Shown here: positions 14,649-24,054 of the stretch, one piece after another
Layout of the letters: each line of letters starts with the position of its first letter
How positions within the stretch are numbered: the stretch's first letter is position 1
NCBI GenBank assembly: GCA_029260495.1
Contig: JAJDDD010000016.1
Location: forward strand, 186,001-250,000
Reading direction: 5' to 3'
DNA length: 64,000 nucleotides
Source of the DNA: Phycisphaerales bacterium
GTDB taxonomy: Bacteria; Planctomycetota; Phycisphaerae; Phycisphaerales; UBA1924
Position numbers and translations under genes: made by a program
Notes under the pieces: generated by a model
Database searches by the model: none
What the model saw: only the letters and a program-made list of their open reading frames with translations
What the model was told of the DNA's origin: nothing

Positions 14649-17600
14649 TCAGAAGCCAGCGTCAAACCGGTTTTGGAGCGAATCGAGCAGACCCGGGAAG
14701 TTCCGCTCCTCCTCCTCGTTCTGAATGATAATCGTCGGCTTGATCAGAATAAACAGCGTCATCTCTTCCTTCGACTCAATCCGATTCGTGAAAAATCGAT
14801 TGATGATCGGCAGCTTGCTCAGGACAGGCACGCCCGACTCAACCTCAGCCTCATTCACAATGCGCTGCCCACCGATCATGAGCGTGCCTCGATCCGGAAT
14901 CGTCGCGCCTGTCGAGATGCTGGTGATCTGAATCGCCGGCGCTTCAAAAGAAGCCGTCACAGGCGGGCTGCCAGTGCCATCCTGAGTGCCCCCACCCGTC
15001 TGCGCTGTCACCGTTGGATTTGGAGATGGGTTCGGAATTTCTTCAGCAAGGGCTGTGTCGATGGTCAGCGTGACATACCGACGATCTGCGGAAACGACAC
15101 CATCGAGTTGAAGAGAGAAACCCGTGCTCAACACACTGAGCTGTGGATCAAACGCGACGGAGTTTGTTCCAACAATCGGATTGAGATCCGACACAAACGA
15201 CCGCTGAGATGTCACAAAGATATTCGCAGTGTGTCCATTCGTGAACGTAAGCCGCGGAGCAGTCAGCACAATGCTTCGCCGATCCGCCTGCGTTGCTTCA
15301 ACAAGGAAATCCACCTGCACATCGTCCAGGAACGTGCCTGCAAGCTGAAGCGCGGGCGTCAAGCCGTCCGGCCCAACAAAGTTTGAGGCGAACGGCGAAC
15401 TGATCAGCGACTCAACAATGCTCGCGCTGTTTTGGTTCACCGGAATCATGCTGGTCCGGTTCGGCGCGGTTGCGGCAAACGGCGTCGCCACCAGTCCGGG
15501 CACGGACCCCGGGCCAGGGTCCGTGTCCTGAAACTCCTGCGTCGCTCCAGTTCGGTTCCCAGCCGCGCTTGAAAAGAATGCATTGACAATATTGGATGGG
15601 AGCAATGTCGTTCTGCCGCTGGGGATGTCCACCGTGGGCGAGAAGATGTCCTGCTGCGCAAGAGCATCCTCAAACTGACTGTTCTGAGCGTTGAAAATGA
15701 CGTCGACATCAAATCCAATCTGCTCGAAGAACTCTTGCGTCACCATGAGGAACCGAGCTTCGACATTAATCTGAATCGAACGAATCTCTCTCAGCTGTCG
15801 AAGCAGGCCGCTGATGCGCCGGTGGTTCCGCGCCGTGTTGGTGATAATCAGATTGTCGTTCAGCTCCTGAATGATTCCAGTGTCGCCGCCGTTGTCACGC
15901 CACCCCTCGAAGTCCACATTGGTTTGCAGAATTTCAATAAGGCGCTCGCGCAGCTCCTGCTTGGTGATTCGCTCATCATCCTCATCTTCTTCATCAAAGA
16001 TGCTGCCGGAGCCGCCGCCTCCCTGGCCCTGGTTGAGGACGCTGTCAAGATCAAGCTCCGGAGCATTGTTGAAATCAGGGATCTGATAGAGGAGATCGCG
16101 CACATCGTAAATAACGATAAACGTATTTTTGCGCAGGTCCGCATCCGAGGCGACGACGAGCACACCATCGTTCACCGCCCAACTCGCTCTGCTGAAGCTG
16201 TCCGGACTCACCTTCTCAAGCACGCGATCCAGAATCACCTTGGCGGGCAAAGCTTGCAGATTAAGTGACACCAACGTGTCACGATCAACGCCGATGTCTG
16301 AGAGTGATTCCCAATCGATATCGACATTCAAGTTCGTCACTGTTGCGACAAACTCAAGCACGTCTTCAAGTGTATTGTCAGCAAAAGTCGCAGGGACGCG
16401 CTTCGCTTCCAGCGCCGCCAGCACGCGGCGGTCCGCTGCAGATTCTGTAAACGCTGTGGGTTCACCGCGCCGGAAGCTCAACTCAGGCCAATCCGGAGGA
16501 TAGTCGAGAATGTTTCTCGGAATGACAAGCTCATTCTGCATGTTCACGCTCTCTCGAGCGTAGCCGTAGTGCTTTTCCCGTTGCAGGCGGTCAAACTCGC
16601 GGAAGAGAATGACATCACGAAGCGTATCTCGAAGCAAAAGCCCCGCTGGATCCTGAGGATCAAGGAACAAGATTTGATCTACGACCTGCAAGGCCTCTTC
16701 GTATTTCTGCTCAAGCTGAAGCGCGCGTACGCGATCCAGCGATTCATTGATCTGGACCCGCTTCTCCTGACGACGAAGTTGCTCCTGCTCCTGCGCTTCA
16801 TCTGCGATTTTTGACGAGCGTTCATCAGCCTCGTTGAGTCGTGACGTCTCCTCCGCCGTGATGATCTCCTGAATCAGCGCCGTCTGTTGCACGGAGAGGT
16901 TATTGAACTCAGTTTCCGAGAACAGCCCCCGCACATCGGAGAGGCGAATACGCGCTTGCTCAGCCAACGTGCGCGAGCGATTAAAATCACCCGCAACAAG
17001 AGCCTCGCGAGACTGAATTAGAAAATCTTGAAACTCTGCTCGCGCCTGCTGCACGATGATGCTGCGCGTATCAGTCTGTTGCTTGAGCGCTCCCGCGCCA
17101 GGTTGCTGAAGCATCACGCGCGATTCATCGATCCGAAGCTCCGCCCGCTGGACATCGTCATTGCTGACAAATCCGCGGAACGGGCCGAGAATCTCCTGGT
17201 ATTTCCGGATCGCTTCGTTGTAGCGCGACGCGCCAAAGGCAGCATCCGCCTCCGCAAGCACGCGCTGCGCTTCCATACTCAGCATGTCCTGGAAATCCTG
17301 ATCGCCCGCATCCCCAGGATCAGTCAACTCAGCGTCCTGGAAGCCATCATCCATAAAATCATCATTGATGTCGACGAACCCCTCATCCTCAATGATGGGC
17401 TCCTCGAAAATGACATCATCAGGCTCATCAATCTGCGAATCGTCTTGTTGCCCCCGGGCGTCATCCCGCCGTGTGATCCGCCCCGGCTGGAACATGCCAA
17501 GTGAGACAGACTCAAACGCAAAGGGCTCTCCTCGGTAGCGCTCAAGCTCAGCGACGCGCTGGCGATGCCGATCAATCTCCCGAAGCTGTGCTGGAGTCAG

Positions 17601-18137
17601 CTCAACTCCCGATCGATACACGCTGTCAAGCCCGGTCTTCGCGTCGGCGTAATCGCCAGCGTTGAAGTCCGCGATAGCGCGCTCAAGCGCCGGATTAACG
17701 AGCGGCGCCAACTCCTTCTTGAGTTGTTCGGAGCGCTTCAGGATGAACTCAGCCGCATCGCGCTGCGGGCGAGTCGCTCGCTCAGAGCGCCTCGCTGCAT
17801 GCGCTTGCCGATCCGCCTCCCGAAGATTGCCAGCCTCCATCGCGAGCTCAGCCTTCTGGAGACTCAAATCGACAGGGTCAGCGTGCCGGATTCGACGCTC
17901 GATCGAGGTCAGCAGGTCGAACGCACGCTCGCGCTCGTACTCATTCATCTCATTACGATTCAGTTGGACAAGCTCTCGCTTGGCTGCGATGAGCCGGCCC
18001 TCAGCCATGAGCGTCGCCGCTTCGTCGATCGTGGAGGCGGCCAGCTCGTCTGCGCGGGTCAGGTCAACCCCCGCCCAACAGACGCACACAACTGCTGCGA
18101 GGATCATGCCTGTCACACGTCGGCTTCTTTGCTGCAT
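14649..18137 (-). CDS. Long secretin (GspD/PilQ superfamily) with N-terminal helical repeats
   Basis: About 1162 residues, far longer than usual GspD (650-800). Order: signal peptide (RVTGMILAAVVCVCWAG), an N-terminal ~500 residues of TPR-like and charged helices with an acidic stretch near 250-290, an N-domain region (ATFADNTLEDVLEFVATVTN), ring-building repeats with an acidic Gly-rich insert, then the secretin core. The core ends VPVLSKLPIINRFFTNR with MTLFILIKPTI, the canonical secretin signature. It should form an outer-membrane pore for type II secretion or pili. ATG at 18137 has GGAG 7 bases upstream. No other secretion genes are adjacent except a distant MshEN-domain gene at 27508. Confidence 0.9.
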   Translation of the reverse strand: MQQRSRRVTGMILAAVVCVCWAGVDLTRADELAASTIDEAATLMAEGRLIAAKRELVQLNRNEMNEYERERAFDLLTSIERRIRHADPVDLSLQKAELAMEAGNLREADRQAHAARRSERATRPQRDAAEFILKRSEQLKKELAPLVNPALERAIADFNAGDYADAKTGLDSVYRSGVELTPAQLREIDRHRQRVAELERYRGEPFAFESVSLGMFQPGRITRRDDARGQQDDSQIDEPDDVIFEEPIIEDEGFVDINDDFMDDGFQDAELTDPGDAGDQDFQDMLSMEAQRVLAEADAAFGASRYNEAIRKYQEILGPFRGFVSNDDVQRAELRIDESRVMLQQPGAGALKQQTDTRSIIVQQARAEFQDFLIQSREALVAGDFNRSRTLAEQARIRLSDVRGLFSETEFNNLSVQQTALIQEIITAEETSRLNEADERSSKIADEAQEQEQLRRQEKRVQINESLDRVRALQLEQKYEEALQVVDQILFLDPQDPAGLLLRDTLRDVILFREFDRLQREKHYGYARESVNMQNELVIPRNILDYPPDWPELSFRRGEPTAFTESAADRRVLAALEAKRVPATFADNTLEDVLEFVATVTNLNVDIDWESLSDIGVDRDTLVSLNLQALPAKVILDRVLEKVSPDSFSRASWAVNDGVLVVASDADLRKNTFIVIYDVRDLLYQIPDFNNAPELDLDSVLNQGQGGGGSGSIFDEEDEDDERITKQELRERLIEILQTNVDFEGWRDNGGDTGIIQELNDNLIITNTARNHRRISGLLRQLREIRSIQINVEARFLMVTQEFFEQIGFDVDVIFNAQNSQFEDALAQQDIFSPTVDIPSGRTTLLPSNIVNAFFSSAAGNRTGATQEFQDTDPGPGSVPGLVATPFAATAPNRTSMIPVNQNSASIVESLISSPFASNFVGPDGLTPALQLAGTFLDDVQVDFLVEATQADRRSIVLTAPRLTFTNGHTANIFVTSQRSFVSDLNPIVGTNSVAFDPQLSVLSTGFSLQLDGVVSADRRYVTLTIDTALAEEIPNPSPNPTVTAQTGGGTQDGTGSPPVTASFEAPAIQITSISTGATIPDRGTLMIGGQRIVNEAEVESGVPVLSKLPIINRFFTNRIESKEEMTLFILIKPTIIIQNEEEERNFPGLLDSLQNRFDAGF

Positions 18138-18367
18138 CCCTGGTCTCCGAACGCACTTGTCATTGCGCGAGTCAATTCTCTGTCTGTCGCGCCGGGTCGC
18201 CAACATCTGGCGCCGACAGCGCGGCCAGCCCCTGCGCCCTACGGGCGAAGCAAGCCGGGCGGACCATAACTTCCGTATATTGCCCTCGCAACCGCCTTCG
18301 GTTCCATTGAGTACGCAACCTGAGCCGTTTCAATGGGTTCCCCGGATCGACGCCCAACTCGCTGAAA

Positions 18368-20737: not shown

Positions 20738-21136
20738 TTAATCGAGCGATTCAGCTTCGATACTCGCCGACTCGCCTTTGCGTTTCTTTTCGATGTAGCG
20801 CTCGATCCAGCGTTCAAAGCTTTTGCCGTGGGCGGTGTCCTTGCCGGTGAACTCGATGGACACGATGTCCGCGTAGCTCACTGCGATCTTGTCGTCTGAG
20901 TCATTCGGCATGAGACGCAGGGAGGAGTCTGCCAAGCCTTCTCCGCGATGCCGGTCGAAGATATAGCCATCGAGTCTCTGGCCGGTGTCGAGATTGAGTG
21001 AGACATCGCCGCGATAATCAAAGGCTTTTTCCAGAGCATCGAGCAGTTCCTGTTCATCATTGCGACAAGCGACGAGCCCCTGAAGATTGGTTTCGGTGGC
21101 GACGGGGCTCGGTTTGGATTTGGTTTCCTGGGGCAT
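20738..21136 (-). CDS. Small conserved-looking protein with SH3/Sm-like core
   Basis: 132 residues with no named family. The central part (about 38-95) reads as a small beta barrel: YRGDVSLNLDTGQRLDGYI, then SLRLMPND and KIAVSYADIVSIEFTG, reminiscent of Sm-like or SH3-like folds. The C-terminus is a highly charged helix (SFERWIERYIEKKRKGE). ATG at 21136 is preceded by AAGGA. It lies 6 bases downstream of another short gene on the same strand, so the two are very probably co-transcribed. Function unknown. Confidence 0.7.
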   Translation of the reverse strand: MPQETKSKPSPVATETNLQGLVACRNDEQELLDALEKAFDYRGDVSLNLDTGQRLDGYIFDRHRGEGLADSSLRLMPNDSDDKIAVSYADIVSIEFTGKDTAHGKSFERWIERYIEKKRKGESASIEAESLD

Positions 21137-21142
21137 TTTTTT

Positions 21143-21478
21143 CTATCCTTCTGTCGAAGCTCGCTCGCCTCCGAACGTTCTGCCGGTTTCCGGGTCCATC
21201 ATGGCCCAGCCAGTGGATCGGCACAGGCGATTGAGGACATGCCAGGCGATCTCCTCTTCAAGCAGTGTAACCATTGCCTGCATGACATCGTCCTTGTCAT
21301 CGACCATTGGGAGTTCGACGCGCAGGCCGGGGCCGTGGGCCATCCCAAAGCTCTCAGCGGAGCCGTCGGGAGCAGTGTTGAACCCGCGCAGGGTGCGCAT
21401 CACTGAGCGTTTTGTGCCCAAAGGTTCGGCGCCGTTCTCGGATGGGTTGACCAGGATGACTTGGCGGGGAGATGGCAC
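21143..21478 (-). CDS. Small hypothetical protein
   Basis: 111 residues from a GTG at 21478. No named family. Residues about 55-105 look globular: LPMVDDKDDVMQAMVTLLEE, EIAWHVLNRLCRSTGWAMMD and PETGRTF. The start and end are disordered. It is 6 bases upstream of the Sm-like small protein gene and 92 bases downstream of the acyltransferase, all on one strand, which suggests an operon. No function can be assigned. Confidence 0.65.
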   Translation of the reverse strand: MPSPRQVILVNPSENGAEPLGTKRSVMRTLRGFNTAPDGSAESFGMAHGPGLRVELPMVDDKDDVMQAMVTLLEEEIAWHVLNRLCRSTGWAMMDPETGRTFGGERASTEG

Positions 21479-21570: not shown

Positions 21571-22635
21571 TTAGCGTTTTGGCGAGCCTGGGAGATATTC
21601 TCGCGCATCTCGAGCTGACCGCTCGACGATTCGTTCGAGCATTTCATCAGAAATCCAGGGGAGTGAGCGAATTTTCTCACGCAGCGCATCGGGGAAGGGG
21701 TCGCCCTGGCGTTCATGGCGCGGGCGGCTTTTCCAGTAGCGGTGCATCCAGAGGTACTGCTCAGGCGAGTGTCGGACCATCATTTCGATTGCCCGTCGAT
21801 AGCGGGCGGTGATATAGAACAGCGGGTCGGGCTGATCGCGCCAGTGTTCGGGGCGAATGACATCGACGACGTTGATTTGATACGCGAGGCGCGCGGTGCG
21901 CGATCCGCCCCGGCGCACGGCGTGAGAGCAGATGATTGGCATTTCGTAGCGCATCGCGAGGAGGCCGATGGTTTTGTACGCCGATGCGAGCCGGTTGAAA
22001 AAGGGGACAAAGAGGCCGCGGTCGCCGGCGTTTTGATCAGCGATGAAGCCGACGGACTCGCCGCGCTCGATGCAGCGGGGAAGGGTTTCGGTGGCGCCAA
22101 ATTTGTCAATCAGGCTGAGCCCGAAACGGGCGCGCGATTGTCGGACCCACTTGTCTACGGGGGTGACATCAAGCGGGCGATAGAGAGCATGCGTGCGCAG
22201 GCCCAGCATGCCAACGGTGGCGCCGAGCAACTCCCAGTTTCCGCAGTGGCCGGTGATGAGGAGTTTGGGCTGGCGGCTGATGATGAGTTCGAGTGAATCG
22301 CGCATGTCGCCGATCTGGATGCGCACGGGCCAACCATCTTGGGTGAGTAGTCGCGGAGCGCGGGCTATCTCGATTGCGAGTCGGAAGAGGTGGCGGTATC
22401 CCGAGAGCGCACACTCGGCGACGCGCTGTTCTGTCCAGTCCGGAAAGGACCAGCGGATGTTGTCATGCGCGCGAGCGAGTCTGTCGCGGTTGAGCTTGGA
22501 ACGGGCCCATGAGTCGCCGATGCGATCGATCACGAGGAGTGTGTCGTCGATGCTGAGGATATTGCTCGCGCCAGCGATAGCGCGCACGCTGGCATAGAGC
22601 AGCGGATGCGTGATTCTTTTCAGAGCGGCGGGCAA
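21571..22635 (-). CDS. LpxL/HtrB-family lysophospholipid acyltransferase
   Basis: 354 residues, resembling lipid A late acyltransferases, which add a secondary acyl chain to lipid A precursors at the inner membrane. The catalytic HxxxxE motif is HCGNWE (H130, E135) after a beta strand PKLLITG. Downstream marks are IADQNAGDRGLFVPFFNRLAS and a C-terminal PEQYLWMHRYWKSRP, matching the family's W..H.RW/K end. The TTG at 22635 is the apparent start and has no clear ribosome site. The gene is 39 bases downstream of the BRCT-like membrane protein gene. The acceptor lipid is unknown. Confidence 0.88.
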   Translation of the reverse strand: MPAALKRITHPLLYASVRAIAGASNILSIDDTLLVIDRIGDSWARSKLNRDRLARAHDNIRWSFPDWTEQRVAECALSGYRHLFRLAIEIARAPRLLTQDGWPVRIQIGDMRDSLELIISRQPKLLITGHCGNWELLGATVGMLGLRTHALYRPLDVTPVDKWVRQSRARFGLSLIDKFGATETLPRCIERGESVGFIADQNAGDRGLFVPFFNRLASAYKTIGLLAMRYEMPIICSHAVRRGGSRTARLAYQINVVDVIRPEHWRDQPDPLFYITARYRRAIEMMVRHSPEQYLWMHRYWKSRPRHERQGDPFPDALREKIRSLPWISDEMLERIVERSARDAREYLPGSPKR

Positions 22636-22674: not shown

Positions 22675-24054
22675 TTAGTTGGCGCCGGTGTACCCCGTGA
22701 GTGTGTAGAGGCGGTTTTCATTAAGGATGGGAATGTTGGTCTGGACAGCGGTGCGGAAGAGTCTGTCGTATTCCTCGGCGCCGCGCTGTTGGTGGATGTA
22801 GGCCTGGATGACGGCGATATCGGCATCTCCGGGGGGGGCAGGTGGAACGATCGGCTTTTCTCCGAGCACGAGAAAGTCTGTGCGGCCGTTGATGTCGTCA
22901 GTGACGCGGCCGCCCCAGGATTTGATAACGCTCTTGATGGAGTTGGCTTCGTGAGGCGTTGAGAGTCCGTCGCGGTTGGCGTCATAGTTGCCGAAGACGA
23001 CGAATTCATAGGTTTTGTTGGGGTCGTATATCGCGTTTGCGAGGATATCGCCGGTGACGATCGGATTGCCACGGCGTCCGCCGCCGATGATTCGGCAGAC
23101 TGAGGATGTTTCATCGACACGGATAACCTCGACGATGCCCTTGCCGGAGGGATATTCGCCGCTGGCGTCTGGGCGGATGCTTGACGCTTCGGAGTACACC
23201 TTGAAAGTCATACCGAGGACGACGCGATTGTTTCTGCCGATGTCGATAAAGACACGGCCGCTTTGGGGATCGGTGGAGATAATGCGCGCATCAACGAGGG
23301 TCGCTTCGTCGGCAGGTTGAAGCGTGTTTCCTCTTTGTGCGAGGCGCAGGCTTTCGAGTGTATCTGTTTGAATCAGGATTGTTTCATTGAGTTCGCGCAC
23401 GCGCTCGCGGAGAGCGTTCTCAGTTTCGCTGGCGTTGTTGCGGATAGCTGAAACACGCTCATCATTGGCGCCGATGGTGTCGTGGACGGAGTTGCGATAG
23501 ACCTCAAGCTCGCTGCGGTAGCGGCCGATTTCGTCGTTGAGGGCGGCGAGCGTTGCGGTGTGGTCATCGCGCAGGCGGGACACACGATCGACTTCGGCCT
23601 GGAGATCGCTTTGGGCGGCCTGCTGGGCGGCGTTGGCTTCCTGGAGTGAGCGGTCGAGCCCCGTGATCTGGCGGTCGCGCTCGGAAATGACGCGAAGGAG
23701 TGAGCTGGTGTCTGCGCCTTCGACAGATTGGATTTTCTGTTCAAGGTCAGCCAGTGAATCGGAAGCATTGCCGGTCACGCGGCGCATGGTTTCTCGCCGG
23801 GAGTCTTTGAGATACATGACGAGGCTTTGTCCCGAGCGCTGAGATTCAGAGAGCAGTGCTGCGATTTCGTCATCGTTTTCCTCTCCGGCTCTGACGATCG
23901 CGGCGTGTTGAGCGCGAAGGTCGGCGGTGTCTTTTTCCGCTCGCTGGGCCTTGCCGTAGAAGACGACTGCGGTGATAAAAGCAGCGATCAGCAGCGCCCC
24001 CGTGAGGGTCATGGTGATAGCGATGCCTGGGCCCATCGTGGTGCGTGAAGCCAT
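22675..24054 (-). CDS. Membrane-anchored coiled-coil protein with a C-terminal BRCT-like domain
   Basis: 459 residues. One N-terminal transmembrane helix (about 11-33) is followed by a long coiled coil (about 35-240), then a beta-rich region (about 250-342, with NNRVVLGMTFKVYSE). The C-terminal part (about 348-455) looks like a BRCT domain: YEFVVFGNYD, a helix SIKSVIKSWGGRVTDDI, then RTDFLVLGEK and a final helix/strand with PILNENRLYTLTGY. BRCT domains are normally found in DNA-repair proteins and ligases, so a membrane location is odd. GGAG lies about 10 bases before the ATG. It heads a run of four same-strand genes. Confidence 0.8.
   Translation of the reverse strand: MASRTTMGPGIAITMTLTGALLIAAFITAVVFYGKAQRAEKDTADLRAQHAAIVRAGEENDDEIAALLSESQRSGQSLVMYLKDSRRETMRRVTGNASDSLADLEQKIQSVEGADTSSLLRVISERDRQITGLDRSLQEANAAQQAAQSDLQAEVDRVSRLRDDHTATLAALNDEIGRYRSELEVYRNSVHDTIGANDERVSAIRNNASETENALRERVRELNETILIQTDTLESLRLAQRGNTLQPADEATLVDARIISTDPQSGRVFIDIGRNNRVVLGMTFKVYSEASSIRPDASGEYPSGKGIVEVIRVDETSSVCRIIGGGRRGNPIVTGDILANAIYDPNKTYEFVVFGNYDANRDGLSTPHEANSIKSVIKSWGGRVTDDINGRTDFLVLGEKPIVPPAPPGDADIAVIQAYIHQQRGAEEYDRLFRTAVQTNIPILNENRLYTLTGYTGAN

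Follow-up and report, generated by a model that had tools for sequence, protein, structure and literature searches.

The window analysed here is a 64,000-nucleotide stretch of contig JAJDDD010000016.1 from a Phycisphaerales bacterium with a 3.2 Mb genome. An open reading frame on its minus strand (24054..22675) begins with ATG and encodes 459 amino acids plus stop, and in the encoded protein a short basic tail precedes a transmembrane helix, which is followed by a coiled coil, a FlgT_C-like beta domain and a BRCT domain (Table 1). A preliminary description had read a transmembrane helix, a coiled coil of about 200 residues, a beta domain and a C-terminal BRCT layout from this gene, and all of them are present; since the same layout recurs in 59 of 61 genomes of the order sample and 148 of 150 genomes of the class sample, the architecture is not a product of chance. 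Residues 36-245 contain no proline and are 32% charged, and none of 2000 shuffles reached their hydrophobic periodicity of 3.56 residues. The matches of this region to coiled-coil models (SMC, myosin, DivIC and Filament) were taken as composition and not as homology. Directly downstream, after a gap of 39 bp, lies an LpxL/HtrB-like acyltransferase gene, followed by genes for proteins of 111 and 132 amino acids, neither of which had a Pfam or NCBIfam match. Linkage to the secretin gene in the window was rejected, as the secretin is not near the BRCT-protein gene in 80 relatives, and the signal-peptide-like start of the neighbouring MgtE was discarded as the product of a wrongly placed start codon in the ORF list, because its relatives have no such start.

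Table 1. Features of the BRCT-protein gene and its surroundings, in window coordinates
Feature	Position	Strand	Basis
Whole gene: transmembrane helix, coiled coil, FlgT_C-like and BRCT domains	22675..24054	-	ORF; full length kept across order and class
N-terminal transmembrane helix, residues about 9-33; signal anchor, predicted N-in/C-out	23956..24030	-	Hydropathy and flanking charges
Coiled-coil rod, residues 36-245	23320..23949	-	Periodicity, absence of proline; profile hits to coiled coils such as myosin
FlgT_C-like beta domain, residues 251-342	23029..23304	-	PF16538 in class members; VIA matches to 8z5n and 3w1e
BRCT domain, residues 343-459	22678..23028	-	PF00533 above cut-off; AlphaFold2 model; structural matches
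EF-hand-type loop DANRDGLSTPHE, residues 358-369, BRCT beta1-alpha1	22948..22983	-	Column counts over 79 aligned rows
LpxL/HtrB-like acyltransferase, probable operon partner	21571..22635	-	PF03279, E 5.6e-31
111-aa protein, third gene of conserved neighbourhood	21143..21478	-	Near the gene in 46 of 80 relatives, often next after the acyltransferase
132-aa small protein	20738-21136	-	ORF
Secretin-domain protein, 1185 aa, large N-terminal region	14649-18206	-	4 kb from the BRCT-protein gene

The C-terminal domain of the 459-residue protein is a BRCT domain. PF00533 matched the whole protein at 22.2 bits (Pfam gathering score 21.3), the C-terminal domain alone at 26.3 bits and, in a genome-level search of the host genome, at 25.6 bits; it also matched 62 of 72 relatives at E up to 1. 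Of 14 members from the phylum's other classes, 11 gave a match with an E-value no higher than 0.01, the best being 1.6e-17. A profile of these other-class members found the BRCT domains of LigA (1l7b, E 8.6e-10) and RFC1 (E 9.5e-8). The AlphaFold2 model of the region, computed with 72 aligned relatives (pLDDT 94.2, pTM 0.84), has the element order beta1-alpha1-beta2-beta3-alpha2-beta4-alpha3, as in BRCT, and shows the sheet of the superfamily, in which four strands are flanked by alpha1/alpha3 on one side and alpha2 on the other. Foldseek placed a LigA model and the RFC1 BRCT at the top, with E-values only near 1e-3, and almost all of the best 50 VIA rows were BRCT domains (best Z 8.7, rmsd 2.5, 75 aligned residues), with Z values for RFC1 (8.7), LigA (8.5) and MCPH1 (8.3) that are moderate and stand beside the profile evidence. 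The Gly-Gly turn between alpha1 and beta2 is kept in most of the 79 aligned rows (G381 in 73, G382 in 78). AlphaFold2, Foldseek and VIA thus all return the BRCT fold that the preliminary description had read from three motifs, and these map to beta1 and the following loop (VVFGNYD), the end of alpha1 with the Gly-Gly turn and beta2 (SWGGRVTDDI), and beta3 (TDFLVLGE). In the class sample, PF00533 matches comprised LigA-length frames, the membrane-anchored BRCT family and a few short extra frames near some ligA genes. Such short BRCT-matching frames, of 310-332 aa, lie beside ligA in three class genomes (L242 on G086:C70; G062:C1:2164792-2164998; G094:C45:3359-3538).

The family extends throughout the phylum, so that the motif is not confined to the window protein. 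Among the Planctomycetota of the phylum sample, 148 of 199 genomes carry it, a count from a single-sequence search that is a lower bound and in which 13 of the 199 are class members. The scan of contigs with the single protein as query gave no matches; with a close alignment as query, it found the relatives. The gene is usually present in a single copy per genome, and no match to the protein was found in the plasmid collection. This near-universal, usually single-copy presence suggests a housekeeping structural role. Tandem pairs occur in several genomes of other classes (L185, L187, L188, L189, L192 and L198), and their products could possibly form hetero-oligomers. One family member (L069:1102-2493) has two consecutive BRCT domains. 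Two contigs entitled Leptolyngbya sp. PLA1 and Cyanobacteria bacterium CYA (L112 and L139) carry the gene, and because it stands there in Phycisphaerales synteny, these MAG records look mislabelled.

The beta domain that precedes the BRCT resembles the C-terminal domain of FlgT, a domain otherwise known from periplasmic flagellar ring proteins. In a two-domain AlphaFold2 model of the C-terminal part (pLDDT 88.4), its top VIA matches were FlgT structures (8z5n, Z 10.0 over 77 residues; 3w1e, Z 9.3), and, of 44 class members, 17 have a PF16538 (FlgT_C) match with an E-value of 0.01 or lower, the best being 6.3e-7; the window protein itself had no such match in its Pfam scan. F1-ATPase beta barrels came next at Z 8.4, and therefore the fold is that of a common small barrel. 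No flagellar genes were found in the neighbourhoods checked, and the three-domain FlgT architecture is absent.

In textbooks, a BRCT domain marks a protein as one of DNA repair or checkpoint signalling. The phosphate pocket of bacterial BRCT domains binds phosphates at DNA nicks and ends (PMC10504179). In LigA BRCTs of the same class, TG after beta1 and GSK before alpha2 are each present in 24 of 24 sequences. In the membrane-anchored family, residue 354, at the position of the pocket threonine, is mostly F, Y, A or W, no Thr or Ser precedes the beta1 glycine in any of the 79 rows, among the residues listed, and the lysine of the GSK motif at alpha2 is not conserved. The mean net charge of the domain is -3.9, against +0.8 in LigA BRCTs. 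Given the loss of the pocket Thr and Lys together with the acidic charge, DNA binding by the known pocket route appears unlikely.

The location of the domain could be predicted from the charges that flank the membrane helix. The net charge of the N-terminal flank, with the amino terminus included, is higher than that of the 15 residues past the helix in 145 of 170 homologues, lower in 4 and equal in 21; this excess on the N side holds for net charge only, and K and R counted by themselves do not show it. By the charge-difference rule the more positive flank lies inside, thus the protein is predicted to be N-in/C-out and its BRCT would be periplasmic. The preliminary description had considered a BRCT either on the outer face or tethered to the membrane, and the flanking charges make the outer-face version the better-supported topology. 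Depletion of Cys was dropped as a sign of periplasmic location, because LigA BRCTs of the class, which are cytoplasmic, contain just as little Cys. To our knowledge, every well-studied BRCT is cytoplasmic or nuclear. The suggested link to chromosome or envelope processes could be kept for the envelope; its chromosome part is not supported, in view of the missing pocket residues, the acidic charge and a predicted topology in which the BRCT is extracytoplasmic.

The beta1-alpha1 loop of the BRCT has in the order the consensus D-x-[ND]-x-D-G-x-x-[TS]-x-x-E and is followed by a helix. Over the 79 aligned rows, D358 is kept in 79, N or D at 360 in 68, D362 in 68, G363 in 69, T or S at 366 in 75 and E369 in 66, so that ligands at positions 1, 3, 5 and 9, Gly at 6 and an acidic residue at 12 follow the EF-hand-type pattern, whereas position 8 does not hold the usual hydrophobic residue. 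The strict form D.[DN].[DN]G was found in 69 of 92 order members and 29 of 41 other class members (98 of 133 in the class), but in only 2 of 55 members of other classes, which have a short loop. L195 and L196, which carry a DxDxDG loop although they lie outside the class, are perhaps close sister lineages. According to PMC3123361, the proteins in which Dx[DN]xDG motifs are known show a strong bias towards a secreted, surface or periplasmic location. From this motif, the loop of the Phycisphaerae BRCT is predicted to bind Ca2+, and since BRCT is absent from that survey (PMC3123361), such a site, if true, would be a structural context that the survey does not contain.

It could be argued that the protein is inverted (N-out/C-in), so that a membrane-tethered cytoplasmic BRCT would hold DNA or a repair or replication factor at the membrane. 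LigA and RFC1 BRCTs, the nearest in sequence by the E-values above, bind DNA, and polA lies divergently upstream of the gene in some class members. Nevertheless, the charge bias runs the opposite way in nearly all homologues, and the extracytoplasmic type of the Ca loop, the lost phosphate pocket, the acidic domain and the adjoining FlgT_C domain all speak against this orientation, which we regard as unlikely.

The gene neighbourhood points to the envelope but differs between lineages. The LpxL-like acyltransferase gene lies near the BRCT-protein gene in 59 of 80 relatives and is usually adjacent, and some of the remaining loci are truncated. Conservation of this adjacency in Phycisphaerales and the short gap in the window would fit a role in lipid A or outer-membrane assembly together with the acyltransferase, for instance as a tether between inner and outer membrane; the adjacency is nonetheless limited to the order, being seen neither in sampled class members outside it nor in other classes, and this role seems quite improbable. 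In other classes, 13 of 20 loci have tatC as the next gene downstream, in the same orientation, raising the possibility that the protein is a periplasm-facing accessory of TatC and works for the Tat export machinery or for Tat substrates. Yet tatC is absent within about 8 kb in 20 class loci and sits on other contigs in the host genome, although the protein is equally conserved there, and the other-class loci also have cinA downstream and coaE-rho divergently upstream, an arrangement that suggests an ancestral cluster of housekeeping genes more than an operon dedicated to Tat; a Tat accessory is therefore judged a distinctly poor prospect. With LpxL-like in the order, polA in some class members and tatC in other classes, a single conserved partner gene was rejected, and since neither the LpxL nor the tatC link spans the phylum, the neighbours suggest an envelope setting and not a partner.

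Based on the charge bias, the Dx[DN]xDG loop of the class, the FlgT_C domain, the lost pocket, the acidic BRCT, the envelope neighbours (LpxL-like, TatC) and the near-universal distribution, we consider it somewhat more probable than its negation that the protein serves Planctomycetota in general as a periplasmic scaffold or tether, anchored in the inner membrane, and that its BRCT head binds protein and not DNA. The scaffold role is drawn from architecture and context, on computed features that comprise folds (predicted, and matched to solved structures), conservation, the loop pattern, pocket loss and synteny. The N-terminal helix would fix the protein in the inner membrane and leave a short tail in the cytoplasm, and the roughly 200-residue coiled coil, judging from its heptads, would oligomerise into a rod across the periplasm. 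This rod could present a head of FlgT_C-type beta barrel and BRCT, which might bind another envelope protein or itself, with the BRCT probably no longer using its pocket for phosphates or DNA ends. In Phycisphaerae, the beta1-alpha1 loop may bind a Ca2+ and so stabilise or gate the head. Counting against the scaffold, the adjacent genes differ between lineages and indicate no single partner, K and R counts do not share the bias of the net charge, and the well-studied BRCTs known to us are all cytoplasmic or nuclear. We would give about even chances to the fuller scenario, in which planctomycetes moved a BRCT of DNA-repair type into the periplasm as the binding head of a phylum-wide envelope rod and one class later acquired an EF-hand Ca2+ site within it, producing a calcium-stabilised or calcium-gated BRCT.

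A literature search yielded no paper that dealt with a BRCT in the periplasm, with BRCT combined with FlgT or with such a BRCT in planctomycetes, and we found no published description of the architecture of transmembrane helix, coiled coil, FlgT_C and BRCT. If true, a conserved BRCT working outside the cytoplasm would break the DNA-repair rule and call for caution, in that not every BRCT protein should be annotated as DNA repair. Planctomycetota differ from model bacteria in envelope and division, and this gene, being near-universal and usually single copy in the phylum, is a concrete candidate for a general envelope component.

Several known systems share parts of this protein. With the BRCTs of LigA (1l7b) and RFC1/p140 (2ebu, 7u1a) it has in common the predicted fold, the Gly-Gly turn, the TDxLVxG motif of beta3 and profile similarity, whereas here the domain sits at the tip of a membrane-anchored coiled coil, lacks the pocket Thr and Lys, is acidic and has a long beta3-alpha2 insertion and, in Phycisphaerae, the EF-hand-type loop. 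The C-terminal domain of FlgT (PF16538; 3w1e, 8z5n) shares the beta-domain fold and the Pfam matches in class members, but unlike FlgT of the flagellar H ring, this protein is without the N and middle domains and is fused to a coiled coil and a BRCT. MreC is periplasmic and consists of a transmembrane helix, a coiled coil and beta barrels; the layout of inner-membrane anchor, coiled coil and C-terminal beta domain is common to both, while the beta domain here is another one, the head is a BRCT and the MreC Pfam domain had no match in the window protein (Pfam scan, E up to 0.1). Finally, EF-hands, dockerins and calcium blades (PMC3123361) share the ligand pattern of the Dx[DN]xDG loop and the helix after it, whereas in this protein the loop links a beta strand to alpha1 of the BRCT fold.
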